Origin: Minisyncoccota bacterium
GTDB taxonomy: Bacteria > Patescibacteriota > Minisyncoccia > Moranbacterales > UBA2206
Length of the DNA stretch: 38,752 nt
Assembly: GCA_031291955.1 (NCBI GenBank)
Contig: JARLIA010000008.1
Coordinates: forward strand, 1 to 38,752
Direction: 5' to 3'
Within the stretch, counting starts at the first letter, position 1; each line of letters begins with the position of its first letter. Made by a program: the position numbers and the translations under genes. Positions 7,322 to 34,379 of this stretch are shown one piece after another. A model generated the notes under the pieces. That model had not been told where the DNA came from. It did no database searches and was given only the letters and a program-made list of their open reading frames with translations.

Positions 7322-9214
7322 ATGACAGCAAACGAACTGAGGAAAAAATATTTGGAATTTTTCCAAAGTAAAGGGCATGCGGTGATTCCCAGTGCGCCGG
7401 TTTTGCCGGAAAACGATCCGACGGTGCTTTTTACGACTGCCGGCATGCATCCTCTGGTGCCGTATCTCATGGGCGAGAAACATCCGCTCGGCAAAAGATT
7501 GGCCGACGCCCAAAAATGCATCCGAACAGGCGACATTGACGACGTGGGCGACAACCGGCATCTGACTTTTTTCGAGATGCTGGGTAATTGGTCACTCGGT
7601 GATTATTTCAAGCGCGAAGCTATTGAATGGAGTTGGGAATTTATGACTGATTCCAAATGGTTAGGATTGGATCCAAAGAGAATTTTTGTCACAGTTTTTG
7701 CCGGCGATAAGGAAGCGGGTGTCGATCGCGACAATGATTCAATTGAAATTTGGAAAGAGCAATACAAAAAAATCGGGATGGAAGCGGGCGTGTGCGAGCT
7801 GGACAAAAAAGCCGAAAAAAATAGTCGGATATTTTTGCTCGGGAAAGAAGATAACTTTTGGGGACCGGCCGGCGAGACGGGTCCATGTGGTCCATGTACG
7901 GAAATGTTTTATGATGTCTGGCCAGAAGAAGGCGAACTTCAAGGAACGCATGACGAGTTGGTGAAACAATTCCGTCTCATGGAAATTTGGAACGATGTTT
8001 TCATGGAGTTCAATAAGTCCGCGGAGGGAAAATTTGAGAAGATGGCCCAGCAGAACGTGGACACTGGCATGGGATTGGAGCGGACGGTGACTGTTTTGTC
8101 CGGGAAAGAAAATGTTTTTGATACAGACTTATTTTTGCCAATCATCCAAGAAGTAGAAAAGCTTTCGGGGAAAAGCTATCAAGACGAAGAATACAAAAAA
8201 CCAATGCGCATCGTTGCCGACCACATCAAAGCCGCGGTGTTCATCATTGCCGATGGCGTGGAACCGTCCAATGTCCAGCGCGGATATGTTTTACGTCGAC
8301 TCATCCGTCGCGCGGTGCGGCAGGGACATGTTCTGGGTATCAAAGAAAATTTTACGACTAAAATTGCCAAAGTGGTGCAAAAAATTTATGGCGCGGTTTA
8401 TCCGGAAATTCTGAGAGAAAACATTTTAAATGTTTTGGAAGAGGAAGAAAATAAGTTTGCTAAAACTTTGGCTAGCGGATTATTAAAAATTGAAAAATAT
8501 TTAAGTAATCCAGAAGGGAACTTTATATATAGAAAATTTGGAAATGAGACACAACAAGCTCCAAGTTATTTTAATACTGATGCGGCCGAACTTAGCTTTG
8601 ATTTGTATCAAACCAATGGGTTTCCATTGGAAATGTCCTTGGAGGAGTTGAAAAAAACAGGAATTACTTTCGATGAAGAAAAAATAAAAGAAAAATTTAA
8701 TGAAAAATTAAAACAACACCAGGAACTTTCCCGCACTGCTTCCGCCGGGATGTTCAAGGGCGGACTAGCAGATACGATGGAAAAGACGACCGCATTGCAC
8801 ACGACGGCGCATTTGATGCTGGCGGGACTGCGGAAAGTTTTGGGTGAAGGAGTGCATCAGAAAGGTTCCAATATTAATGGCGAGCGGATTCGCTTTGACT
8901 TTTCTTACGGCGAAAAGATGACCGACGATCAGAAAAAAGCGGTTGAGGATTATGTCAACGCGGCCATCAAAGAAAACGTGAAAGTAATAATGTCGGAGAT
9001 GACGCCGGAAGAAGCGCGTGAGGCCGGGGCGGAAGGCGAGTTCGGACACAAGTACGGCGAGCTGGTGAAGGTCTATGAAATCCCCGGCTTCTCCAAAGAA
9101 ATTTGCGGCGGCCCGCACGTCAAAAACACCGGCGACATCAAAGGCGTGTTTAAAATAGCTAAGGAAGAAAGTTCCAGCGCGGGCGTGAGGCGGATAAAGG
9201 CAACACTTGTCTGA
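7322..9214 (+). CDS. alaS: alanyl-tRNA synthetase without C-terminal DHHA1/C-Ala domain
   Basis: The class II synthetase charges tRNA-Ala. The catalytic domain starts with the conserved MTANELRKKYLEFFQSKGH and contains TTAGMHPLVPYL, GNWSLGDYFK (motif 2 region) and GMGLERT (motif 3). The tRNA-recognition part shows ADHIKAAVFIIADGVEPSNV. The editing domain has H493xxxH497 (HTTAH) and C595xxxH599 (CGGPH, where CGGTH is usual), so mischarged Ser/Gly-tRNA-Ala can probably be hydrolysed. At 630 residues the protein ends just after the editing core and lacks the oligomerisation/C-Ala region found in most bacterial AlaRS of about 870 residues. The natural stop is clear and the next gene follows directly, so this is a compact form rather than a frameshift. 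Confidence 0.95.
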   Translation: MTANELRKKYLEFFQSKGHAVIPSAPVLPENDPTVLFTTAGMHPLVPYLMGEKHPLGKRLADAQKCIRTGDIDDVGDNRHLTFFEMLGNWSLGDYFKREAIEWSWEFMTDSKWLGLDPKRIFVTVFAGDKEAGVDRDNDSIEIWKEQYKKIGMEAGVCELDKKAEKNSRIFLLGKEDNFWGPAGETGPCGPCTEMFYDVWPEEGELQGTHDELVKQFRLMEIWNDVFMEFNKSAEGKFEKMAQQNVDTGMGLERTVTVLSGKENVFDTDLFLPIIQEVEKLSGKSYQDEEYKKPMRIVADHIKAAVFIIADGVEPSNVQRGYVLRRLIRRAVRQGHVLGIKENFTTKIAKVVQKIYGAVYPEILRENILNVLEEEENKFAKTLASGLLKIEKYLSNPEGNFIYRKFGNETQQAPSYFNTDAAELSFDLYQTNGFPLEMSLEELKKTGITFDEEKIKEKFNEKLKQHQELSRTASAGMFKGGLADTMEKTTALHTTAHLMLAGLRKVLGEGVHQKGSNINGERIRFDFSYGEKMTDDQKKAVEDYVNAAIKENVKVIMSEMTPEEAREAGAEGEFGHKYGELVKVYEIPGFSKEICGGPHVKNTGDIKGVFKIAKEESSSAGVRRIKATLV

Positions 9215-18625: not shown

Positions 18626-19084
18626 ATGGCTACCAAGAAAGTTACTAAAAAAGAAGAAGCAACGGAGAAAAAAGAAACTGCCGAGAAAGGCAAGTATTTT
18701 TATGCAGTCGGCAGACGGAAGACGGCCGTGGCCAAAATCAAGCTTTATGAGTCCAAGGGCAGCCAGAATACCATTGTGATCAATGAACGTGCGCTGGAAA
18801 AATATTTTCCGCTGGATCGCTTGTCTGAAGTGGCCAAATCTCCGCTGGCGTTGGCCGGCGAAGGCTCCAAATTTGAAGCGGTGATAAGAGTCCTTGGTGG
18901 CGGCGTGAACGCCCAAGCCGAAGCGATCCGGTTGGGTATCTCGCGCGCACTAGTGGTGTTTGACGAAACGCTCAAAAAATCTTTGAAGGACAAAAAATTC
19001 CTTACCCGCGATTCACGCGAAGTGGAACGCAAAAAGGCCGGTCTCAAAAAAGCCCGCAAGAGTCCGCAGTGGGCGAAGCGCTAA
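18626..19084 (+). CDS. rpsI: 30S ribosomal protein S9 with charged N-terminal extension
   Basis: S9 sits in the head of the small subunit; its C-terminal arginine tail reaches P-site tRNA. Core motifs are YFYAVGRRKTAVAKIKLYE, VLGGGVNAQAEAIRLGISRA and the end KKARKSPQWAKR. About 23 extra Lys/Glu/Thr-rich residues precede the core. The usual QFSKR C-terminus is here QWAKR. It is the last gene of the operon before a strong terminator. Confidence 0.95.
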   Translation: MATKKVTKKEEATEKKETAEKGKYFYAVGRRKTAVAKIKLYESKGSQNTIVINERALEKYFPLDRLSEVAKSPLALAGEGSKFEAVIRVLGGGVNAQAEAIRLGISRALVVFDETLKKSLKDKKFLTRDSREVERKKAGLKKARKSPQWAKR

Positions 19085-19105
19085 AAAAGTTTCCTTCATT
19101 ATTTT

Positions 19106-19150
19106 CCTCTCCTTTGGGAGAGGATGTCCGGTACTCCGGACAGGTGAGGG
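19106..19150. repeat. double-hairpin intergenic repeat
   Basis: CCTCTCC/GGAGAGG (19106-19123) and TGTCCGG/CCGGACA (19125-19142) form two neighbouring hairpins, ending GGTGAGGG. The layout is typical of mobile palindromic units in CPR genomes. There is no T-tract, so it does not itself terminate transcription. Confidence 0.6.
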
Positions 19151-19182
19151 AAAATCGGATTCGAGTACATTTCATATCACAT

Positions 19183-19213
19183 AAAAAAATCTCCCAGCGA
19201 TGGGAGGTTTTTT
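19183..19213 (+). terminator. intrinsic terminator of the ribosomal operon
   Basis: CTCCCA GCGA TGGGAG, flanked by an A-run before and a T-run after (GTTTTTT), gives a strong tetraloop terminator. The A-run also makes it usable from the other strand. Confidence 0.9.
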
Positions 19214-19229
19214 GCTTTTGTGGTATAAT
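19203..19229 (+). promoter_or_regulatory. extended -10 promoter of the DUF2892 gene
   Basis: TATAAT at 19224-19229 is preceded by TGG and by TTTTG, repeating the string seen before the pilM/ftsA-like gene. No good -35 box is visible. It starts inside the T-run of the preceding terminator. Confidence 0.65.
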
Positions 19230-19271
19230 ATAACCAGCGATTTTCGCGGTTAATTATTAAGGTCAAAAAAT

Positions 19272-19475
19272 ATGACCAAAAATGAAAGTTCGGTGGACCA
19301 CTGGGTGCGGGCGGTGCTGGGGGTGGTTGTCCTCTGGTTCTCATACGCCAGCCTTTCCGGCTGGGAGATGTGGGTCGGTTACATTATCGGCCTGGCGCTT
19401 CTTGTTACGGCCGCGACCGGCTATTGTTGGCTCTACCAAGTGCTCGGGATGAGCACGAAAAAACAAGGTCAATAA
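19272..19475 (+). CDS. DUF2892-type small inner membrane protein
   Basis: The 67-residue protein has two membrane helices (VRAVLGVVVLWFSYASL and MWVGYIIGLALLVTAATGYCWLYQVLG) around a short turn. The pattern VDHWVRAVLG with GYCWLYQVLG at the end matches the DUF2892 family, the membrane part of YgaP-like proteins, where CP(L/I)Y..LG is usual. Here the CP pair is CW. Function is unknown. It is monocistronic, between two terminators. Confidence 0.7.
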   Translation: MTKNESSVDHWVRAVLGVVVLWFSYASLSGWEMWVGYIIGLALLVTAATGYCWLYQVLGMSTKKQGQ

Positions 19476-19506
19476 AAAAGACAAGCTTTGACGCTTGTCT
19501 TTTTTA
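19474..19506. terminator. bidirectional terminator between DUF2892 gene and rpmE
   Basis: AAAAAAGACAAGC and GCTTGTCTTTTTT form a perfect 13-bp stem around TTTGAC. T-runs on both strands let it end both convergent transcripts. Confidence 0.9.
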
Positions 19507-19527
19507 AAAAACGCAAAAGAAAGAAGA

Positions 19528-19824
19528 TTATTTTTTCTTCTTTTTGGAAACCACTTTCTTGGTTTCGGCTTTGGGTTTTCTGGTGCGTTCCTTTTTCTCG
19601 GAAGTAACCTTTTTCTTTGAAGCGGCTTTTTCGGCCATCTTCTTGAAGCGTTCGACCCGGCCGGTCGTGTCCATCATTTTCTTTTTGCCGGTGTAGAGCG
19701 GATGACAGGCGGAGCAAATTTCCACTTTCATTTCGGCCACGGTCGAGCCCGCCTCGATCACGTTGCCACAGGCGCAAATTATTTTGGCATCAGGATAATA
19801 CTGGGGATGGGTGTTCTTTTTCAT
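19528..19824 (-). CDS. rpmE: 50S ribosomal protein L31 with basic C-terminal tail
   Basis: L31 bridges the two ribosomal subunits. The core begins [20 protein letters not shown] and holds the zinc ligands of the C+ form (CACG and CSACH), then [20 protein letters not shown]. About 30 Lys/Arg/Glu-rich residues follow, giving 98 residues against about 70 normally. I start at 19824; the longer frame would translate promoter sequence. It is transcribed opposite to its neighbours. Confidence 0.94.
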
Positions 19825-23147: not shown

Positions 23148-23257
23148 GGCCCGCCAGATTTTCTCGTTTTATTATTTTCCAACAACCATATGATATAGTT
23201 AAGCTTATATAGTTAGTTGTTGTTGAATATGAAATTGGAAAATCAAGCGGGCGGGCC
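23148..23257. repeat. nested inverted repeat (MITE-like) abutting the tRNA cluster
   Basis: GGCCCGCC at 23148-23155 pairs with GGCGGGCC at 23250-23257, GATTTTC (23157-23163) with GAAAATC (23238-23244), and CAACAAC (23180-23186) with GTTGTTG (23216-23222). The right arm includes the first three bases of the split tRNA-Thr. It fills the gap after the TPR gene. Terminator, MITE and processing hairpin all remain possible. Confidence 0.6.
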
Positions 23258-23276
23258 GACTTAGCTCAGTGGTAGA

Positions 23277-23414: not shown

Positions 23415-23570
23415 CAAGGCATGTCGGGCGCGGTAAAGCGAAGGTCGTCGGTTCAAATCCGACAGTCGGCTCAAAGAGCATATTAGCATGTCAACATATT
23501 AATATATTAGCAAACGGTATTTTCTGTTAATATGCCAATATGCTGGCATGTTAAAATGAAAATGAATATT

Positions 23571-24160: not shown

Positions 24161-25861
24161 TTAGTTATTGAAGTGAGACAAGGGGTTTCCCTCGCGACTT
24201 CTAGCGGGCTTTGCTCGCCGAAGGTCGCTATGGCGACCGAAGGCGGGTGTCGTATAGTGGCAATACGTCGGTCTCCAAAACCGATAACGGGGGTTCGATT
24301 CCCTCCACCCGTGCATGACAGAAGCAGTCTCCTTGACGGAGGCTGTTTTAGTTTCAAACAAAGCAATATTCAGAGTTCGAAGCTTGCCTTTTTGTGCTGT
24401 TTCAACCTTTGCGCTTTCTATGATCCAGCTGAAAGGCTCGGCAAGCGTAAAAGACTGTATTTTCTTGTCTTTTATAGAGATGTTCGAAGATATGATTGAG
24501 ACAATTTCTTTCTTGGTTTCCAAGTCGCCATTTATGAATAATTTGTTGGCACTTTTTATGAAGAGCGAGGCTTGCTCAATCTTCTCAAAAACATTGCAGA
24601 AATTATCAATGGAACTTCGCAGAATTTCTCCAAGCGTTGCTTCTTCATTGCGAAGCTCTGCTAATTTCTTGTTGTAGATGTCTTGCGGAATAGCATTGTC
24701 GATAAACTTCTCAATCAAAGAATCCTGCCGCGTTTTGTTATTATCCAAAAGCATTTTATTTTTCTTTTCAATATCGCGGGCACTTTCCCATTCTTCTTTG
24801 CTGTTGGCTCGTGCGCCTTCAATCATAATATCAATGGCATTCTCATCGAAGTTAAGTTTTTTGAGATGTTTGTCGATTTCTTTTATTAATTCTTCCTCGC
24901 GCAAATATTTCTGCGAACATTTGCTGGCTCCCTTGGATTTTGTGCAATGATAATAGATATGACCCTTCTGCGTTTCGGCGGTTATTTTCAAACCGCATTC
25001 TCCGCAAGTCAGATGTCCGCGAAAAGGAAAATTATGAATATGCCGCCCGACTATGTGCTGGCGCGGATTAAAAACCTCCTCAACCGTATCAAATAATTGC
25101 TTGGAAACAATCGGCGCGTGCGCGCCTCGATAAACTTGATCATTCCAGCGGAAATAGCCGTAGTAAATCGGATTCTTGAGCATTTTATAAATCCCTCCGC
25201 CATAAACCTTTTTCCCATTGCGCGAACGGAAGCCGTTCGTATAGAGCGTGTCGGCTAATGTCGGCAAGGAATATTTGCCGGTGGCATAGAGCTTGAAAGC
25301 ATCTTTAACATACTGCCAGCGTTTCTTGTCGATGTAGATCTTCTTGGTTTTGTAATCCAATAGATAGCCAACTGGGGGAGTGGCCGGATATTCGCCACGG
25401 CGAATTTTCTCGGCTTGTCCACGCTTCACATTCTTGCTCAAGTCGCGAACATATTGATTGGCCATAGAAAACTCAATGCTGGCCATTACAACATTGTCAG
25501 CGGGATTGTAGTCGCGCTCAAAGGTCTTGATTTGCTGAATCGTGCCTTTTTCCAAAAGCCACTGGACAAGTCCGGCATCCATGGAATTTCTGGCCAGTCG
25601 GTCTATTTTCCAACACAAAATGCCGTCATATTTTCCGCTTTTGAATTTTTCCATCATTTGATTGAAAATCGGACGCCCGGGCTGCTTGGCGGATTTGGAT
25701 TCTTGCAAAATCTCCACAATGTTGAGATTTTCCCTTTTCGCGATTTCTTGCATCTCAAAAATTTGCGATTGAATAGAAAGAGCTTGCCGGTCTTCTGATT
25801 CGGTTGATTTTCTGGCATAAATTACGAAACGCATTTTATTGTTTGTTTTTATCTTTTCCAT
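24161..25861 (-). CDS. large serine recombinase (integrase), C-terminus altered by integration
   Basis: This is a serine site-specific recombinase. The resolvase domain begins MRFVIYARKST with catalytic S19 and contains the IDRLARN arginine motif. A recombinase domain follows (GYLLDYKTKKIYIDKKRWQY). A zinc ribbon comes next, starting with CGECG and followed by further cysteines in the CTKSKGASKC stretch. A coiled-coil region lies at about 375-440. I start at ATG 25861; the TTG nine bases upstream is possible. Up to residue 518 (ASVMHG) the frame lies in the element. The last 48 residues (WRESNPRYRFWRPTY onwards) are antisense tRNA-Trp and upstream sequence. In an excised circle the frame would instead run into the segment at 36886-36800, giving about 546 residues. 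It probably catalyses integration into, and perhaps excision from, tRNA-Trp. Confidence 0.9.
   Translation of the reverse strand: MEKIKTNNKMRFVIYARKSTESEDRQALSIQSQIFEMQEIAKRENLNIVEILQESKSAKQPGRPIFNQMMEKFKSGKYDGILCWKIDRLARNSMDAGLVQWLLEKGTIQQIKTFERDYNPADNVVMASIEFSMANQYVRDLSKNVKRGQAEKIRRGEYPATPPVGYLLDYKTKKIYIDKKRWQYVKDAFKLYATGKYSLPTLADTLYTNGFRSRNGKKVYGGGIYKMLKNPIYYGYFRWNDQVYRGAHAPIVSKQLFDTVEEVFNPRQHIVGRHIHNFPFRGHLTCGECGLKITAETQKGHIYYHCTKSKGASKCSQKYLREEELIKEIDKHLKKLNFDENAIDIMIEGARANSKEEWESARDIEKKNKMLLDNNKTRQDSLIEKFIDNAIPQDIYNKKLAELRNEEATLGEILRSSIDNFCNVFEKIEQASLFIKSANKLFINGDLETKKEIVSIISSNISIKDKKIQSFTLAEPFSWIIESAKVETAQKGKLRTLNIALFETKTASVKETASVMHGWRESNPRYRFWRPTYCHYTTPAFGRHSDLRRAKPARSREGNPLSHFNN
24243..24313 (+). 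tRNA. tRNA-Trp(CCA), integration target
   Basis: A 71-nt cloverleaf: acceptor GCGGGTG/CACCCGT with a G-U end pair, D-arm GTAT/ATAC, anticodon stem TCGGT/ACCGA, loop CTCCAAA with anticodon CCA, T-arm GGGGG/CCCTC, discriminator G, then CA. Its last six bases belong to the direct repeat that bounds the proposed integrative element. The gene is intact after integration. Confidence 0.93.
24308..24317. other. attL core
   Basis: CCCGTGCATG overlaps the last six bases of tRNA-Trp (24308-24313) and continues four bases beyond. The same ten bases recur at 36887-36896. The recombinase frame crosses it, reading MHG on the minus strand. Confidence 0.6.
24325..24349 (+). terminator. terminator after tRNA-Trp, supplied by the element
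   Basis: CAGTCTCC TTGAC GGAGGCTG forms an 8-bp stem (one G-U pair) followed by TTTT. It lies just inside the proposed element, in antisense to the recombinase. At the other end a second terminator stands at the same distance from the core. Confidence 0.6.
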
Positions 25862-25872
25862 ATTCGACAAAA

Positions 25873-25878
25873 ATTATA
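25873..25878 (-). promoter_or_regulatory. -10 box of the recombinase gene
   Basis: TATAAT on the minus strand lies 11 bp upstream of the ATG. No convincing -35 box is seen. The transcript would have a very short leader. Confidence 0.4.
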
Positions 25879-26762
25879 AGAATTATGGTTCCCAAAAATA
25901 ACAATATGGTTGGTAAGTCTGCCGGTGAATCGCTGAGTAATAAGTTTGTGTCCATAATTTTTTGCACAACAAAAGGCGCCACTCGCTTGTACACAGATCC
26001 TTACGGACACCGTAGCAAATGACGCCATTTCCCGAAGCGATGCAAAAAGCATCACTTCAGGTGTCCGCGTATTAATCTGTGTACATTTATATATTATCAT
26101 CTTTTTTATCATATTTCCAGCTCTATTTGGTGGCTCGCTTCGCTCGCATTTTATAGCCCTGCCGTCACTCGCTTAGGCTCGTTCCGGCTAATGAAAACCA
26201 AGTTTTTCAATCTTTCCTTTCAAGGGTAGTTTTCTCACAACCAAATAATAGAGAAGGCAGAAAGAAACATTGTCATTGGAAAATATTTTATTCAAGGAAG
26301 ATTTGGCAGACTGGAACTTTCGCGGCGAAAGTATCCAGACAGCCAAATATCAAATCATAATTTTCCAACGCCACTGTTTCATCCTGCACATTCTGAAAGG
26401 TTGTGAGAAAACTGCCTTTATAGAAACGAAAACCTCAGCGGTTATTCTTTTCATTCTTTCCCCGTAAGGAAGGAAAAATCCAAGAGCAAGGGGATGAGAA
26501 AATGCCTCTAATTGAAAAGCTCAAGGCTGTGGGATTGGCATTTTCTCACCCTCGCACAACGCGACGTTTTGCGACGCTCCTCTTGTTTGTTGCAAAAACT
26601 GCAGTCCAAGCTTTCCTTTGTTTTTGACAAACAAGGGGCATCGCAAGAACGCTCGTTGTGCGACTCGTGGACTTTTCCACTTTTATATTTCAACCACCCC
26701 CTGCCCCCGCCAATCTTGGCGGGGGTTCACCTGTGGAGCGCGAAAACAAAATTCTCACAAAC

Positions 26763-26842
26763 GCTCGGCGCTTGTGTTTTTTGTTTGAGGATGCGGAGGG
26801 GAACAAAAAACACGTCTTCTCACATTTGCTCAAATTTTTTTC
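26763..26842 (+). repeat. hairpin unit 1 with conserved flanks and T7 end
   Basis: The outer flank CTCGGCGCTTGTGTTTTT and its partner AAAAACACGTCTTCTCA surround a variable apex. ATTTG-CT-CAAAT and a T-run follow. It is the first of two units. Confidence 0.6.
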
Positions 26843-26948
26843 TGCCAGCCAGTCTTTCTCTCTGACGCCTCTTTTCTGTTTTGTGCAAAGAACAAAAGCA
26901 CTGCTTCGTTGTCCCATTTCACCGTGTCCAAACAAAATCACTTCAACT

Positions 26949-27041
26949 TCTCGTCGCTTGTGTTTTTCCGTCCGGCTCCGATATTTAGATCATCGCCGGC
27001 CGGCAAAAACACGTCTCCTCAAAGATTGAATCAATTTTTTT
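26949..27041 (+). repeat. hairpin unit 2 with conserved flanks and T7 end
   Basis: Same outer flanks as unit 1 with one change on each side (CTCGTCGC, CGTCTCCTCA), but an unrelated GC-rich apex (TCCGGC/GCCGGC). GATTGAATCAATTTTTTT follows. Conservation of the stem ends with a changed apex suggests selection on structure. Confidence 0.6.
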
Positions 27042-27385
27042 GGCCTCTTGCGCCCTTATCTCTGCGCCTCTGCCAGGCTTTGTCCATTTTTCCAAGCCCG
27101 TGGTTCGTTGCCGGAGCGTGGCTGATCATATCTTTGTTTGAAACTCATAAATATGCCTTGTTTAAGCCTTTTTGATGAACTGTGTGTCGCATATTTCGCG
27201 CGACAGAAGGATTTTATTGATACTTTTTTTATTTTCCAATAGAGGGTTTCATGGTTTGCGTAATTCTTTTTTTAGTTTGCTTCTTTATTTTTTCCAATTG
27301 AAAATTTATAAACCATTACAATTTCTTAATACAATTTTTTACTACACTTCCTTATTTCTACACTTTCTTACTACTTCCTTACTAT

Positions 27386-27778
27386 TTACTTAGTAGCATC
27401 CTTAGACTTTCTTTTTTGGTTCTTTTTTCTTTGCGGTGCGGCAATAATTTCATGAGAAACATAGCGGTCAAAGGCTGGACAATTCACGAATTTTCCTCCG
27501 GAGCAAAACTCCTCCTCGCCTTTTTCCAGCTCTCCGCAATTTTTCCACCCGAATTTAGTCAGAAGCGGACAGAGTTTTTCCTCAATGAAGTGATCAAGAA
27601 TTTGGCGGGAAGCGTCTCGGACAATTTTTTTGAGAAGCTCGGGGTCATAATTTTCCAGCATTCTTTTGACGGACTCATCAACGATGGCGTCTGATTTAGC
27701 ACTTTCTTTTTTAGATTGTTCGGACATTTTTTTGAATCTTTCAACAAAAGGATTTCCCTTCGGTGTGTTATTTTCCAT
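27386..27778 (-). CDS. unknown soluble protein with four cysteines
   Basis: The 130-residue protein has a charged helical N-terminal half (VERFKKMSEQSKKESAKSD) and a middle region with four cysteines (LCPLL, WKNCGEL, EFCSGG, VNCPAF) that could hold a metal. The tail is basic. No family is recognised. It lies between the hairpin array and two other small genes on the same strand, so it belongs to the minus-strand module of the element. In this genome type such proteins often accompany recombinase elements, but its function is unknown. Confidence 0.55.
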   Translation of the reverse strand: MENNTPKGNPFVERFKKMSEQSKKESAKSDAIVDESVKRMLENYDPELLKKIVRDASRQILDHFIEEKLCPLLTKFGWKNCGELEKGEEEFCSGGKFVNCPAFDRYVSHEIIAAPQRKKNQKRKSKDATK

Positions 27779-27881: not shown

Positions 27882-28091
27882 TCAGCTAGGTTTTGGTTTG
27901 ACTAGTTCCTGCAAAATTCTGCGTTTTTCTTTTTGGCCATAATCTTCTTTTTCAACTAGCCGGTTGAACCAGAAATAAAGCGTGCGTTTTTGGAAATTTT
28001 GTCCTTCAATAGCGTGGCTAAAGCAAGTCAACGAACTCAAATGTGGATTTTTATGTGCAATTTTTTGGAATCTTCTTTCTATGGATCTCAT
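27882..28091 (-). CDS. small basic protein of the element
   Basis: The 69-residue protein (MRSIERRFQKIAHKNPHLSS) is basic and helical and ends in a Lys/Arg-rich segment. It overlaps the upstream gene (28051-28263) by 41 bp in another frame, as in compact mobile operons. No domain is recognised. A DNA-binding role would fit the charge and setting, but this is a guess. Confidence 0.45.
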   Translation of the reverse strand: MRSIERRFQKIAHKNPHLSSLTCFSHAIEGQNFQKRTLYFWFNRLVEKEDYGQKEKRRILQELVKPKPS

Positions 28092-28263
28092 TTTTTTGAT
28101 CGTTATTTTGTTTATCCAAAGCGCCTTTTATAAAAATCATTCCGAGCCGGCTCATGCGGTCGAGCATGATTTCAACTTCATCATCATTCAGAATCCGTCC
28201 GCTTTTTTCTTCCAGCAGGGCTTTGGCTTTTTTCATCAGGTTGTCGGAATAGATGCGTTCCAT
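28051..28263 (-). CDS. small helical protein of the element
   Basis: The 70-residue protein (MERIYSDNLMKKAKALLEEK) contains SGRILNDDEVEIMLDRMSRLGMIF, two amphipathic helices with an acidic turn, and a basic tail. It overlaps the next gene by 41 bp. No family name is known to me. It starts 42 bp after the terminator of the 28362 gene and so probably has its own promoter. Confidence 0.5.
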   Translation of the reverse strand: MERIYSDNLMKKAKALLEEKSGRILNDDEVEIMLDRMSRLGMIFIKGALDKQNNDQKNEIHRKKIPKNCT

Positions 28264-28361: not shown

Positions 28362-29369
28362 TTAGCTTTTTTTTTGATGTTTCAGGCTGCGCTTGGAAGC
28401 GGCTTTTTTCTTGCAGATGTCAGAGCAAAATTGTTGTGACTTGTGTTCTTTTTTGAAATATGTTTTGCAAAGCGGACAGACATCTACACTCTTCTGACTT
28501 TTAACCAGAAGATAGAATTGCAGACAACAAAGCGCAAAATGTCCATAAACTCGATAACCAGGAACGAGTTGTCCGGCGTCATCAATTTTTCTAAAACCTT
28601 TGATTTCTTCAAATGTCCGCTTATCCGGTGGATATTTGAAATTTACGCTTTTTCCTATTTTTGCAATGTCGTAGTATTTCTTGTCGATAAACATTTCCGA
28701 TGATTGCTCAAGGTAATAATGGATAGATGAAAGATTGGAAAATTTTAATTCTCCAGATTTATACAAATCCAGCAAACTTTTTAGGTATTCCTTTTTGTCC
28801 CATAGATATTCAAGATTGATCTCGCGTATTTTTTCTTTTACAAATAGGTATTCTTTTTTACGATCTTTCGGCACAGGATCTGTCATGGTGTGGGCAAAAA
28901 TATATCTTGCTGTTTTGATTTCATCTACATAGCGATGAATAAGCAATTTCATATCGTCTATGTCGGGGAAAATGCAAAAATCTTTTTTATTTTCAACAAA
29001 TTTTGCAAGGTCATTTTTTGTTTTCAGGCTTATGAATTGCAAATACAAATCCCTTTTTTGATAGTCCGAATAAAAAGTGTAGGGATCTTTATAGGCAAAA
29101 GCCGCTTCAGTCAGATATATTGTTCGGATAGATTGATAGTAATAATACGGACGCTTCGGACTTCTTCTTTGATAATGAGAGAGCCACGGTTCATCTTCCG
29201 TGAAAGCCCGGCCATTTGGTTGCAAATATACCGGCCTTTCCGGATTTTCAGCGTATTCGGCCATATCCCAAACACGGCGAAAAATCCGCCGAATTTCAAA
29301 ATCCGGCATTAAGCAATAATCATTTGATTGGATAATTAACTGGACGCAACGGTCTAAAATGCTGGCCAT
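28362..29369 (-). CDS. unknown protein with C-terminal CGNR-like zinc finger
   Basis: The 335-residue protein is soluble, rich in Tyr, Lys and Asp, and mostly helical. The last 45 residues carry VCPLCKTYFKKEHKSQQFCS followed by DICKKKAASKR. This C-x2-C, about 13 residues, C-x3-C finger followed by basic residues is the form of CGNR-type zinc fingers, which bind DNA in regulators. The large N-terminal part has no motif I recognise. The gene diverges from the methyltransferase operon across a 73-bp region with a palindrome, so it could regulate that operon or be a separate defence gene. Its own terminator shows it is transcribed alone. Confidence 0.55.
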   Translation of the reverse strand: MASILDRCVQLIIQSNDYCLMPDFEIRRIFRRVWDMAEYAENPERPVYLQPNGRAFTEDEPWLSHYQRRSPKRPYYYYQSIRTIYLTEAAFAYKDPYTFYSDYQKRDLYLQFISLKTKNDLAKFVENKKDFCIFPDIDDMKLLIHRYVDEIKTARYIFAHTMTDPVPKDRKKEYLFVKEKIREINLEYLWDKKEYLKSLLDLYKSGELKFSNLSSIHYYLEQSSEMFIDKKYYDIAKIGKSVNFKYPPDKRTFEEIKGFRKIDDAGQLVPGYRVYGHFALCCLQFYLLVKSQKSVDVCPLCKTYFKKEHKSQQFCSDICKKKAASKRSLKHQKKS

Positions 29370-29442: not shown

Positions 29443-30519
29443 ATGGCATTAAACAGTAATTTACATAAGGCCAACAAGGCAAAGAAAGATGAGTTTTATA
29501 CTCAGCTTGTTGATATTGAAAAGGAATTAAAACACTATAAAGAACAATTTCGTGATAAGGTAGTATATTGCAATTGTGACGATCCTTTTGAAAGTAACTT
29601 CTTTAAATATTTTGCCTCAAATTTTAATGCTTTAGGCTTGAAGAAACTTATCGCTACAAGTTACAAGCCATCACCTATTGCTAATACGGAACTTGTATTA
29701 CAGCCATCCCTCCTTCCCGGTTATGAAGATATGGTTGTAATAAAACCGGCAGAAACAAAAGGCCGTCCAAAAACAACGGCCAACAAATTCATTATCAATG
29801 AAGTTAGTGATCTCGACGGTGATGGCGCGTTTGATTTGCGTGATATTGCTGAACAACTCAAAGCAAACAAAAATAACGAATGGGCACCGCTAGAAGGCGA
29901 TGGAGATTTTAGAAGTGAAGAAAGTATAGAACTTTTAAAACAAGCAGATATTGTGGTAACTAATCCACCTTTTTCATTGTTTCGGGAATATGTTGCGCAA
30001 TTGATTGAATATAATAAGAAGTTTTTGATTCTTGGCGACCAAAATGCAGTAACCTATAAAGAAACTTTCGGTTTCATCAAAGAAAATAAATTGTGGCACG
30101 GCTACGATAACGGGGGTACAAAATGGTTTCAGGTTCCTAACGATTATGATATTGAAACAGAGTCAAGAATAAAAATTGAAAACGGTACAAAGTTTTTCAG
30201 TATGGGTAGGATTGTGTGGTATACAAACCTCGATAATACAAAGCGTCATGAAAAAATAGTGTTATATAAGAAATATACGCCGGAAGAATTTCCAAAATAC
30301 GATAACTACAATGTTATAAATGTTGATAAAGTGGCTGATATACCAATGGATTATGAGAGTGTAATGGGTGTACCGATTACCTTTGTTGATAAATATAGCC
30401 CAGCGCAGTTTGAAATATTGGGCATTGCTAATTCTGCAAGATGGATTGGTTACGAGTGTTTTACTTTAATTGAAGGTAGGAAAATATATAATCGAATTTT
30501 AATTAAACGAAGAAAATAA
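29443..30519 (+). CDS. EcoRI-type adenine-specific DNA methyltransferase
   Basis: This 358-residue N6-adenine methyltransferase would protect host DNA at its recognition site. The catalytic motif is NPPF at 174-177 in DIVVTNPPFSLFREYV. The N-terminal VYCNCDDPFESNFFKYFASN stretch is typical of the EcoRI methylase family, where it stands for the S-adenosylmethionine region. The very A/T-rich codon use differs from the ribosomal genes and suggests transfer. The next gene starts after one base. That gene encodes a DUF262-HNH protein, the likely restriction partner. The recognition site cannot be read from the sequence. Confidence 0.85.
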   Translation: MALNSNLHKANKAKKDEFYTQLVDIEKELKHYKEQFRDKVVYCNCDDPFESNFFKYFASNFNALGLKKLIATSYKPSPIANTELVLQPSLLPGYEDMVVIKPAETKGRPKTTANKFIINEVSDLDGDGAFDLRDIAEQLKANKNNEWAPLEGDGDFRSEESIELLKQADIVVTNPPFSLFREYVAQLIEYNKKFLILGDQNAVTYKETFGFIKENKLWHGYDNGGTKWFQVPNDYDIETESRIKIENGTKFFSMGRIVWYTNLDNTKRHEKIVLYKKYTPEEFPKYDNYNVINVDKVADIPMDYESVMGVPITFVDKYSPAQFEILGIANSARWIGYECFTLIEGRKIYNRILIKRRK

Positions 30520-30520
30520 T

Positions 30521-31615
30521 ATGGAAATTGAACTAAATGAAATTCCAGTGCGTGAACTTTTTGCTGGATATAAGGATAGTGATGAAGAGGGTGTGGTTGG
30601 TTATGGCGGAAAATTAGATATTCGCCCGAAGTATCAGCGTGAGTTTATTTATAAACCCGAACAACAAATTGCTGTAATAAATTCAGTGATTGGCGGTTTT
30701 CCGCTAAATGCAATGTACTGGGTAAAGAATAATGATGGAAGCTTTGAAATTCTTGATGGACAACAACGCACGGTTAGCATTTGTAATTTTGTAGCTGGCA
30801 ACTTCAATATCACAAATCGTGAATATCAAATGTATTTCACCAATTTAACCGAAAAAGAAAAAACGAAGATTTTGGATTATAAACTCATGGTTTATTTTTG
30901 CGAAGGCACATATGATGAAAAATTGGCATGGTTTAAGGTTATCAATACCGCGGGTGAAAAGTTAACAAATCAAGAATTGCTAAATGCTATCTATTCAGGG
31001 ACTTGGGTAACTGATGCCAAGCGATATTTTAGTAAGAGCAATGCACCGGCATCCCTTTTGGCCAATGACTATATGGGTGGAACATTAAACCGTCAAGAAT
31101 ATTTGGAAACAGTACTCCGCTGGATTAGTAATGATAAAATTGAGGATTATATGGGCAAGCATCAACATGATGCAAATGCTGAGGAATTATGGGCGTATTT
31201 TCAAAGAGTGATTGAGTGGGTGCAATTTGTTTTTCCAAAATATCGCAAGGTGATGAAAGGAATTGAGTGGGGCGAATTATATGGTAAATTCAAGGATACT
31301 AAATTAGATGCAGAAGAATTGGAGAGTGAAGTTGCGCGATTAATTGCTGATGAAGATGTTGACAGCAAAAAAGGCGTGTACTGGTATGTGCTAACTGGTG
31401 AAGAAAAATATCTCAATATTCGGGCATTTAACGAGAAAATGAAACTTGAAGCGTATGAAAAACAAAAAGGTATTTGCAAGAAATGCAAAAAACATTTTGA
31501 AATTGAAGAAATGGAAGCTGATCATATAACCCCTTGGCATGAGGGCGGAAAAACTATTGCAAAGAATTGCCAGATGTTATGCAAAGAATGTAATAGGAGA
31601 AAATCGGGGAAGTAA
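30521..31615 (+). CDS. DUF262-HNH nuclease, probable restriction partner
   Basis: The 364-residue protein starts with a DUF262 (ParB/Srx-like) domain. RPKYQRE at 35-41 and ILDGQQR with DGQQR at 79-83 are its signature, as in GmrS and other nucleotide-using restriction proteins. The C-terminal 46 residues form an HNH nuclease: CKKC (C319, C322), EADHITPWHEGG with H335, N349, and CKEC (C354, C357). Together they suggest an NTP-dependent or modification-sensing DNA endonuclease. It lies one base after the methyltransferase gene and 4 bp before the PHP-ATPase gene, so it is part of one operon. Whether it cuts unmethylated sites or acts only with the ATPase is open. Confidence 0.85.
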   Translation: MEIELNEIPVRELFAGYKDSDEEGVVGYGGKLDIRPKYQREFIYKPEQQIAVINSVIGGFPLNAMYWVKNNDGSFEILDGQQRTVSICNFVAGNFNITNREYQMYFTNLTEKEKTKILDYKLMVYFCEGTYDEKLAWFKVINTAGEKLTNQELLNAIYSGTWVTDAKRYFSKSNAPASLLANDYMGGTLNRQEYLETVLRWISNDKIEDYMGKHQHDANAEELWAYFQRVIEWVQFVFPKYRKVMKGIEWGELYGKFKDTKLDAEELESEVARLIADEDVDSKKGVYWYVLTGEEKYLNIRAFNEKMKLEAYEKQKGICKKCKKHFEIEEMEADHITPWHEGGKTIAKNCQMLCKECNRRKSGK

Positions 31616-31619
31616 AATT

Positions 31620-34379
31620 ATGGATGATAACAGACAATACAATCGTGGCTCGGAATGGAGAAAATGGGACTTGCATGTTCACACGCCGTTTTCTCATACA
31701 TCAGAATACGCTGGGGCGACACCTGAAGAAAAGTGGGATAACTTTATTGAAGGGCTAGAGTCTTTACCGGAAGACATGAAAGTTATTGGCATCAATGATT
31801 ATCTTTTCTTGGATGGTTATAAGGAGGTATTGAAATATAAAAATGATGGTCGATTAAAAAATATAGACTTAATATTGCCCGTTGTAGAATTTAGATTAAA
31901 AGAGTTTGTAGGAAATGAACAATTAAAGAAAATTAACTACCATGTCATTTTTGCAGAACAGAGCCTTCTCGACACTGATACTATAGAAGCACAGTTTTTA
32001 TCTTGTTTTAGATCATCATGCAATCTTGAGGTAGACGATGTGGGTGGTGCTACTTGGGGTGGCGTTGTAACAAAAGAAAGTTTAATTGATCTTGGTAAGC
32101 ATATATATGAAACTACCCCAGAAGATAAAAGAGAAAGTGACAATCATTTCGAAATAGGCTTTAAAAACATTAGTTATAGTCTCGACAAACTCAAGGAGTG
32201 TTTAGGAGAAATAAAAGAGCCAAACACATATCTGAAAGGTAAATACATAAAAGCTATTGGAAAGTCAGAATGGGAAGATTTTAGGTGGACAGGGTCTCCT
32301 GCGGATAAGAAGGATATAATCAATAATGCGCATATTGTCTTTTCTGCTTCACCAAATGCAGATCAGGCAAATAAAAATATAGGATCTTTAAAAGATCAAT
32401 CAGCAAATGGTCGTTTACTACATTGCAGTGATGCGCACACTATTAAGCAAATTGAAGATGAGGGGGTTGTAAGATTTGATTTTTCTAATACTAGCCCTAA
32501 AGATTTAGGGCATTGTTTTACATGGATTAAGGGGAGTACTAGTTTTGAGACATTGCGACAAGTGGTGGTGGATTATGAAAACAGGGTCTTGATACAAGAA
32601 AGAAACCCTGCTGAAAACAAGAATTCATCCCCAGAGCTTTTTATTGAGAAAATGGAATACAAACAAGACGGCGAAACTCATACAGTTTATTTTAATAAGG
32701 ATATAAACTCTGTTATCGGTAAACGAGGTGCCGGAAAGTCTGTTTTGCTTAAGCATATAGTTTTTGATGTACTTGAAAAAGGTGTTAAAGAAATAAAAAA
32801 ACTAAACGAATTTAAAATTTATTGGTGTGATAATACATCTGAAAATAAATTTATTGAATATATACCACAAAACTATCTATCAGCCATCACTTATGAAGAT
32901 GGTGAAAAATATGACGAACGAGATGAAATGCTAAAGGCACGATTGTTTAATAACGATTTATTTAAAAATGCCGATACTAGCAAAAATGAAGCTATTGATT
33001 CGATAGAGCTAAAAATCAATGCAAAAGTAAAAGAAGCAATTAGCTTGCATAGGCAGATTGTGGATACTACTAGCCAACTGAAACCGCTTGGAAAAGTTGA
33101 AGATAAGGATAAAGCAATAAAAACCAAGCAGGAAGAAATTAATAATCTTGGAAAGATTGATATAACTGATGAAGATATTAAAAACCAAACAAAGTATTCA
33201 TCAGAAATAGATTCGCTTAGTGGGGATATTAAATTATTAGAGCAGGATGTTCAAATTATAAAGAACATTAATAAGGATAAAGATGCGAGTTTTATCACAG
33301 TTGATGACGAAGCCTTTTTTGGATTGTCGCAGACAACATTAGAGTTAATAGAAAAGCACATAGAGAAACTCTCTAGCCAAGAGATTAAAGCGTATCTAGA
33401 TAATCTACTAACTGATTTAACTAAGAAAATCAAAACCAAGAAAAAAGGAAAAAGCACTGTTGAAAAGAAATTGAAGCCGATAAATGAGAAGTTGCAACAA
33501 AATAAGACTATAGAAAAAATTCTAAAGGAAATTAGTAAGCTTGATGTCGAGAAAAAAGAGATAGAAAAACTAAATAAATTCGTCCAAGAATCTAACGAGA
33601 AAAAGGTGGTATTAATTAGTGAAGTTGCTGATTTATACTTATCCTTTAAAGATAAAATAGAGGGAATAATTCAAACTCTTAAAAATGAATTTAGTAACTT
33701 CACTTTTATAACATTTGACTTTATGGTTGGTTATGATGTGAATGCATACAAGAGCAGATTTTTTGATGTGTACATTGATGGACGATCTGGCGATCGGTTT
33801 AAAAAGTTTATTGATGGCAACAGAGATTTTAATAAGATGGAGTTAATTGAAATTATTAAAGATATTATTGCTGACGCGGATACTGCAAAATTAAAAACTA
33901 CGGGTGGTGATAAGGAGCGTGCGCTAGTTGCATTATTAAGTTGTAGATATGATATTGATTTTACAAAATCCGTTAAATATAAAAATGGGGATGGATTGGT
34001 AGATTTTGAAAACATGACTGGTGGACAAAAAGCAATGGCACTACTGGATCTTATCTTTAATTTATCTAAAAGTGGATATCCGATAATTATAGATCAGCCA
34101 GAAAATGATATTGATGTCTCTGGAATTTCGAATGATTTGAGGAGGCTTGTGTTAGATCAAAAAGAAAGACGTCAAATAATAGTAGCAACCCATAGTCCGA
34201 ATTTATTGCTATTGACTGATTCTGAAAATGTAATAATAGCCGAGAATGAAAATAATATTATACATTATCGCAATGGTGGCATTGAGGACAAAAAAATTCA
34301 AGATGACATTGTAAACATTCTTGAGGGTGGTAGAGATGCATTAAAAAAACGTATGCAAAAAATTGGAGTTAACAGGTAA
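31620..34379 (+). CDS. PHP domain-SMC-like ATPase, defence type (Ppl/TrlF-like)
   Basis: The 919-residue protein has an N-terminal PHP phosphoesterase domain: H19 and H21 in WDLHVHTPFSH, and LLHCSDAH later, the metal ligands. An SMC/ABC-type ATPase follows. Walker A GKRGAGKS is at 367-374, a coiled coil spans about 470-690 (GKVEDKDKAIKTKQEEINNL), the signature TGGQ is at 800-803, Walker B IIIDQPEND has D825, and the switch is VATHSPN. This matches the PHP-ATPase group annotated as TrlF-like and the single-gene Ppl defence system described by Gao and colleagues in 2020. I start at ATG 31620; the frame before it overlaps the HNH gene. It probably senses phage DNA or replication through the ATPase and cuts nucleic acid or nucleotides with the PHP domain. 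Confidence 0.85.
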   Translation: MDDNRQYNRGSEWRKWDLHVHTPFSHTSEYAGATPEEKWDNFIEGLESLPEDMKVIGINDYLFLDGYKEVLKYKNDGRLKNIDLILPVVEFRLKEFVGNEQLKKINYHVIFAEQSLLDTDTIEAQFLSCFRSSCNLEVDDVGGATWGGVVTKESLIDLGKHIYETTPEDKRESDNHFEIGFKNISYSLDKLKECLGEIKEPNTYLKGKYIKAIGKSEWEDFRWTGSPADKKDIINNAHIVFSASPNADQANKNIGSLKDQSANGRLLHCSDAHTIKQIEDEGVVRFDFSNTSPKDLGHCFTWIKGSTSFETLRQVVVDYENRVLIQERNPAENKNSSPELFIEKMEYKQDGETHTVYFNKDINSVIGKRGAGKSVLLKHIVFDVLEKGVKEIKKLNEFKIYWCDNTSENKFIEYIPQNYLSAITYEDGEKYDERDEMLKARLFNNDLFKNADTSKNEAIDSIELKINAKVKEAISLHRQIVDTTSQLKPLGKVEDKDKAIKTKQEEINNLGKIDITDEDIKNQTKYSSEIDSLSGDIKLLEQDVQIIKNINKDKDASFITVDDEAFFGLSQTTLELIEKHIEKLSSQEIKAYLDNLLTDLTKKIKTKKKGKSTVEKKLKPINEKLQQNKTIEKILKEISKLDVEKKEIEKLNKFVQESNEKKVVLISEVADLYLSFKDKIEGIIQTLKNEFSNFTFITFDFMVGYDVNAYKSRFFDVYIDGRSGDRFKKFIDGNRDFNKMELIEIIKDIIADADTAKLKTTGGDKERALVALLSCRYDIDFTKSVKYKNGDGLVDFENMTGGQKAMALLDLIFNLSKSGYPIIIDQPENDIDVSGISNDLRRLVLDQKERRQIIVATHSPNLLLLTDSENVIIAENENNIIHYRNGGIEDKKIQDDIVNILEGGRDALKKRMQKIGVNR

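Follow-up and report, generated by a model that had tools for sequence, protein, structure and literature searches.

Two candidate structured RNAs in a tRNA-targeted element of Moranbacteria, the larger of them partly shared with the terS-terL gap of small tailed phages

GOLLD and ROOL are phage and prophage RNAs of unknown function that often lie near tRNA islands and form RNA cages (PMC12286853). The large RNA candidate described here resembles them in being large, modular, and highly structured and in occurring in phages, where its core was found in phage contigs. It differs in having no sequence or structure match in Rfam (the gathering thresholds for GOLLD, ROOL, OLE, and HEARO were not reached), in lying between terS and terL rather than in a tRNA array, in being common to phages and satellite-like elements, and in having turned up, in the searches made, within a single patescibacterial order only. 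A precedent for a packaging RNA is the pRNA of phi29, a structured RNA of roughly 120-170 nt tied to the DNA-packaging genes of a very small tailed phage; phi29 is protein-primed and uses a different ATPase. The RNA studied here is likewise structured and adjoins packaging genes, terS and terL, in phages that are tailed and very small, whereas it is much longer and has no sequence relation or Rfam match to pRNA; its position and its sharing suggest a role in packaging.

The elements that carry this RNA invite comparison with phage satellites (PICI, P4-like elements, and PLE). On the one hand, they are integrated, carry defence cargo, have no structural genes in the parts examined, and hold putatively packaging-related sequence in common with phages of the same hosts. 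On the other hand, they have a large serine recombinase with an RNA leader and share a structured RNA with phages that would be their helpers. The literature searched yielded no paper about phage satellites in Patescibacteria, and the terms satellite, noncoding, and structured RNA are absent from a recent description of patescibacterial phages (PMC13059738). Within that literature, the elements are the first satellite candidates in Patescibacteria. The leader, which we call H1, resembles riboswitches and protein-binding mRNA leaders in that it lies directly upstream of a gene, follows a promoter-like element, and has a conserved pseudoknot near a start codon; it differs from them as a new family attached to large serine recombinases. 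These recombinases are enzymes used in genome engineering, and H1 is a candidate RNA switch for them.

The window is the whole 38,752-nt stretch of DNA that was analysed. It contains an integrated element whose minus-strand order is F1, small ORFs, F2, hairpin region, 39-aa peptide, and recombinase. Its features are as follows.

24,161-25,870, minus strand: large serine recombinase, probable start ATG at 25,834 (Pfam Resolvase, Recombinase, and Zn_ribbon_recom); its 3' end runs antisense through the tRNA-Trp gene
24,243-24,314, plus strand: tRNA-Trp, presumed integration site (attL side); other tRNAs stand in the same arrangement in relatives
25,836-25,955, minus strand: ORF for a 39-aa hydrophobic peptide, MDTNLLLSDSPADLPTILLFLGTIILIIFVEYGKDKNKQ, kept in related loci between leader and recombinase
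25,956-26,107, minus strand: H1, pseudoknotted leader with promoter-like element (covariance model R3, 149.5 bits; covariation; number of loci)
26,090-26,099, minus strand: extended -10-like element TGATAATATA, a putative promoter just upstream of the leader stem (TGNTANTAT in most copies)
26,110-27,200, approximate limits set from conservation, minus strand: large structured RNA (fold z-scores and a five-copy consensus fold)
26,213-26,431, minus strand: H3, long imperfect hairpin including the 15-bp stem and its 186-nt span (inverted repeats and fold), conserved in L027, L029, L030, and L031
26,469-26,681, minus strand: core of the large RNA, a three-way junction of P1, P3 (hairpin H5), and P2 (hairpin H4) (covariance model R2, 98.7 bits; covariation; wobble strand)
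26,696-26,740, minus strand: G/C-rich hairpin adjoining the core, GGGGG..CCCCC on this strand, with a comparable hairpin at the same place in phage L064
27,386-27,778, minus strand: F2, small Cys-rich protein conserved in the element family (known from relatives, without a Pfam match)
27,407-27,432, minus strand: A-rich site common to phages, where it lies upstream of terS (sequence match); overlaps the 3' end of F2
28,051-28,263, minus strand: small conserved ORF of the element family, beginning MERIYSDNLMKKAK (known from relatives)
28,362-29,369, minus strand: F1, conserved 335-aa element protein with a C-terminal zinc-finger-like motif (known from relatives, without a Pfam match)
29,443-34,379, plus strand: defence-type cargo beyond F1, namely an EcoRI-like adenine methylase, a GmrSD/HNH protein, and an AAA ATPase (Pfam)

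Relatives mostly have the same gene order, at tRNA-Asp, -Gln, -Asn, or -Val, and different defence-type cargo. Short repeats that are attR candidates were detected in two of eight loci and imply elements 13.7 kb (G085) and 10.4 kb (G059) long.

A reading of the sequence alone had pointed to a dense series of nested inverted repeats at 25,989-27,041. The repeats are present there, and so is the 15-bp perfect stem that it had singled out as enclosing nested stems across 186 nt: AGTTTTCTCACAACC and GGTTGTGAGAAAACT pair 26,228-26,242 with 26,399-26,413, the span is exactly 186 nt (26,228-26,413), and more stems lie inside it. The conserved structure is wider than that reading had it, extending from about 25,956 to about 27,200, and in the organism's own genome (1.01 Mb in 15 contigs) the nested, hairpin-rich noncoding run at 25,960-27,200 is single copy. 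The fold z-score against dinucleotide shuffles is -7.3 at 25,985-26,085. Folding of both strands, which had been proposed as a check, gave -10.2 (plus) and -9.3 (minus) at 26,140-26,700 against the same kind of shuffles. In overlapping 300-nt windows across the whole window, z runs from -2.1 to -8.5 inside the hairpin region and averages -0.57 outside it (sd 1.55, n=247), which bears out the claim that hairpins are denser here than elsewhere. The strongest values outside come from 19,051-19,501, a stretch of terminator-like hairpins that also takes in part of an ORF, and from the tRNA cluster near 23,250; no other place comes near.

The claim that the region holds no convincing reading frame also held. 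The longest ORF that is open in a relative as well (26,658-27,029, plus strand) has substitutions of 11/7/9 at codon positions 1/2/3 relative to L027, whereas the recombinase, used as a control in the same test, has 125/76/248. We rejected a protein-coding reading on this flat pattern and a MITE or REP-type repeat because the region is single copy in the genome. An integron attC site was rejected because the conserved hairpin bases GTTGTGC do not fit the R'/R'' core GTTRRRY and because the neighboring enzyme is a serine recombinase, not an integron integrase. Group I and group II introns were rejected for lack of a match to their Rfam models. In a cmscan of the window, the element loci, and the phage loci against Rfam 15, neither RNA had a match and only tRNAs were reported; a permissive Rfam scan of the hairpin region returned matches at chance level only. 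The earlier suggestion of a large mobile-element RNA is supported insofar as the region is noncoding, has covarying homologues, and is common to phages; of the GOLLD, ROOL, and HEARO types that it had offered for comparison, Rfam detects none.

The hairpin kilobase is most likely two previously undescribed structured RNAs on the minus strand, a leader and a large RNA; the first hairpin of the region as originally noted (H1) is separate from the large RNA. The sequence-only reading had left the strand open and had thought of a single RNA of about 1 kb; the RNA part of that proposal has survived, and its count and strand now read two and minus. The working molecule is most likely a minus-strand RNA, co-directional with the neighboring recombinase, because mismatches in the helices are mostly G.U wobbles when read on the minus strand. 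The ratio of G.U to A.C cells on this strand is 22:1 for the core in 9 copies, 38:14 in 16 copies, and 47:5 for the leader. Base composition predicts no such excess, as the products of G and T and of A and C frequencies on the sense strand are about equal. On the plus strand, the nine-copy core has 1 G.U cell and 22 A.C cells, and a plus-strand RNA was rejected since the core helices would be almost free of G.U. The same near absence led us to weigh a strict DNA palindrome seriously; that reading then lost weight, as the mismatches turn out to be G.U when the minus strand is read. Mismatch counts in palindromes (40:20 in the element versus 6:3 in 23S rRNA) pointed weakly in the same direction. 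Fold energies of sense and antisense strands did not discriminate, as a coding control was equally biased, and the same applies to strand energies of the phage gaps.

Homologues of the large-RNA region were found by DNA similarity in relatives across one patescibacterial order (Moranbacteria), with copies in the family and the order; those named relatives that a pattern search picked up are Candidatus Moranbacteria. Among 384 genomes sampled from the class and 380 sampled from the phylum, nothing turned up outside the order. Pattern matches in WWE3, rhizobia, and others were dropped because the covariance model did not confirm them. For H1, a covariance model built without the pseudoknot identified 24 loci in 18 of the 131 genomes of the order. 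In all except one of these loci (23/24), H1 immediately precedes the gene for a large serine recombinase, down to about 34% protein identity. With the same model (R3), H1 was not found in phages.

The 11 copies of H1 upstream of recombinases have one fold in common. It has two stems, outer and inner, the latter bearing a variable hairpin, and a pseudoknot of 11 bp in which an internal loop pairs with the sequence immediately 3' of the outer stem. With the pseudoknot included, 91.7% of cells are paired and 51 are double changes, for a score of 0.380 versus 0.181. In most copies, a few bases separate the stem from the -10-like element upstream of it. The pseudoknot adjoins the start of the small ORF or of the recombinase, which suggests translational control; H1 is probably a cis-acting leader that would control translation of the recombinase operon.

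For the large RNA, a consensus fold built from five satellite copies comprises 187 pairs, of which 56 vary on both sides. In the core, P1 closes P2/H4 and P3, and 17 of the 39 pairs are changed on both sides in the nine-copy set. The test for covariation in homologues, also proposed beforehand, gave a strong result under both column shuffles and slid-partner controls. In a sense-strand alignment of 16 copies, two of them from phages, 90.6% of cells are paired and 102 are double changes. The covariation score for this set is 0.417, compared with 0.161 (sd 0.013) for shuffled columns and at most 0.143 for slid partners; the copies are related, so that the cells are not independent events, and kinship is ignored by the shuffles and partly allowed for by the slid controls. 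Some chromosomal copies (L033 and L032) are outside any recognizable element. Separately, the 3' module of the large RNA (GGAAAGTTTGAAAACC..GGTTTTCAA) occurs on its own in L035 (at about 7,709-7,736) and L038 (at about 123-150), where the surroundings are structured too but differ and include neither a recombinase nor the core.

Judged by sequence, the large RNA is partly homologous to an RNA in the terS-terL gap of Moranbacterial phages. A pattern derived from the core found an IMG/VR contig that the model confirms at 88.5 bits; this contig encodes an SU10-type capsid protein, an SPP1-like portal, an adaptor, a tail fibre, and an M23-LysM endolysin-like protein. In a second phage contig, the core lies between a small-terminase candidate and TerL. 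These first pattern searches, which were independent of terL, found only two true phage copies; further distinct phages were gathered through TerL homology. TerL matches phrog_2 (7.5e-20), TerS matches phrog_426 weakly, and related TerL genes are present in four genomes of the order. In nearly all phages with a complete upstream side, the gap between the two genes is free of genes and 0.5-1.5 kb long. All 14 of the gaps that were folded are strongly structured (z from -6 to -29), whereas terL coding sequence is near zero. The model detects the core in phages L064, L096, L138, and L139 and weakly in L102, L103, and L118 (a prophage contig of G102), always upstream of terL and in its direction, and the stem signature of P3 was seen in nine phage gaps. 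About half of the gaps are structured yet too divergent for the core model, and owing to divergence, folding all phage gaps together did not yield a consensus.

The contig ends are identical over 127 bp in L064 and 69 bp in L101, which indicates that the assemblies of L064 (1-14,094, about 14.0 kb) and L101 (1-13,099, about 13.0 kb) may be taken as complete. At this genome size, the gap accounts for about 7% of the total. Tailed phages with genomes this small (about 13-14 kb) are an observation in their own right; the L064 genome has terminase, portal, and capsid genes.

Sharing between elements and phages extends beyond the core. The A-rich site is common to both over 26-37 nt, with 37 of 37 positions identical between L056 and phage L099; it lies just upstream of terS in phages and ahead of the RNA in elements. 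In several loci it overlaps the lysine-rich 3' end of ORFs, and its standing as a DNA site is uncertain for this reason. A small Cys-rich protein is also common to elements and phages, with 27-45% identity in 11 phages. The order in phages is small protein, site, terS, RNA, and terL, and that in elements is small proteins, site, RNA, leader, and recombinase. Because the core, the A-rich site, and the small Cys-rich protein are held in common, the elements look like phage satellites that have retained the packaging locus of the phage but not its terminase, which is the simplest reading. Like satellites, they have their own recombinase at an att site, with the recombinase overlapping tRNA 3' ends in at least eight loci. 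No structural genes were seen among the element genes examined, which cover parts of elements rather than elements from end to end. A packaging sequence in common with a phage would be represented by the core RNA, the A-rich site, and the small protein, which may be packaging signals. All this suggests that the island in the window parasitizes a helper phage and bears a portion of that phage's packaging locus. Giant phage RNAs such as GOLLD and ROOL are still without a known function; the family described here has a fixed place between the two packaging genes of phages and is common to these phages and to satellite-like elements, so that its function is directly testable.

The reading that we prefer, and to which we give about an even chance, is that the region encodes minus-strand structured RNA of a tRNA-targeted element, in which the large RNA would be a satellite copy of the phage terS-terL RNA of about 1 kb and would serve as a packaging scaffold, and the recombinase would have a separate cis-acting leader. 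Probably a phage satellite, the element would have retained the RNA part of a packaging locus and would depend on a helper. The large RNA, presumably transcribed as a discrete molecule, would be made together with late or packaging genes and would fold into a scaffold used by the terminase. This scaffold would act in cis, so that molecules bearing the locus would be packaged by the helper phage; we favor a cis-acting role because it best explains why satellites have their own copy. More tentatively, and with distinctly less confidence, we propose a new kind of RNA, about 1 kb long and linked to packaging, that very small patescibacterial tailed phages would encode between terS and terL, where it takes up some 7% of the genome, and that satellites would carry for packaging their own DNA, together with a new class of leaders controlling large serine recombinases.

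The main rival holds that the region acts as DNA, as a cos- or pac-type packaging site, a replication origin, or recombination hairpins, that satellites need it in cis, and that there is no functional RNA. We regard this as unlikely. A packaging site would fit both the position between terS and terL and the occurrence in putative satellites, the near-identical site of 26-37 bp is common to both as well, and L057 and L059 carry a protein that by eye, without a Pfam match, resembles replication initiators. The strong asymmetry of the wobble pairs toward one strand nevertheless weakens a DNA-only packaging site, and a DNA role such as recombination hairpins, which the sequence-only reading had kept as its alternative, is disfavored on the same account; conserved bulges, the pseudoknot of the leader, and about 1 kb of nested structure also speak for RNA. 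Single-stranded DNA, too, would favor G.T over A.C; it counts against the DNA reading that no single-stranded stage is known here for double-stranded phage DNA.

It seems quite improbable that a single 5' untranslated leader of great length spans the whole region and regulates the downstream gene, that is, terL in phages and the recombinase in elements. H1 is clearly of the leader kind, and the region is co-directional with the downstream gene in phages and most elements; however, H1 has its own promoter-like element that separates it from the large region, it occurs without that region in L034, and the core is kilobases away from the recombinase in L057 and L059. We attach little probability to a trans-acting giant RNA of the GOLLD/ROOL kind that would form a cage during infection, unrelated to packaging, and whose adjacency to terL would reflect late expression only. 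The lack of an Rfam match argues against it, and a trans-acting product of the helper would by itself leave unexplained why satellites have their own copy beside the A-rich site, even though the size, the modular hairpins, the phage and mobile-element setting, and the induction of GOLLD during lysis (PMC12286853) would all fit.

Several minor observations concern the elements and the flanks of the window. On the strand opposite the target tRNA, the recombinase frame extends across the 3' part of the tRNA gene, here at 24,161-24,314 and also in L028, L029, L031, L034, L057, L059, L060, and L061, and the C-terminal residues of the recombinase are encoded by the integration site and therefore vary with the tRNA used. 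The protein of the two related elements L057 (8,176-9,294) and L059 (11,600-12,724) that looks by eye like rolling-circle replication initiators is 372-374 aa long, starts with MVDTVVLSI or MIDTIVISI, and has no match in Pfam or PHROG. L034 (9,446-9,805) encodes an HTH_36 replication-initiation-like protein that is 43% identical to proteins of prophage contigs L116 and L117. The very structured stretch at 19,050-19,560 (z to -7.8) apparently consists of strong terminator-like hairpins around a small ORF. Finally, fragments at 23,260-23,276 and 23,433-23,449 are identical to parts of the nearby tRNA-Thr and lie on both of its flanks, as if a second tRNA had decayed there.
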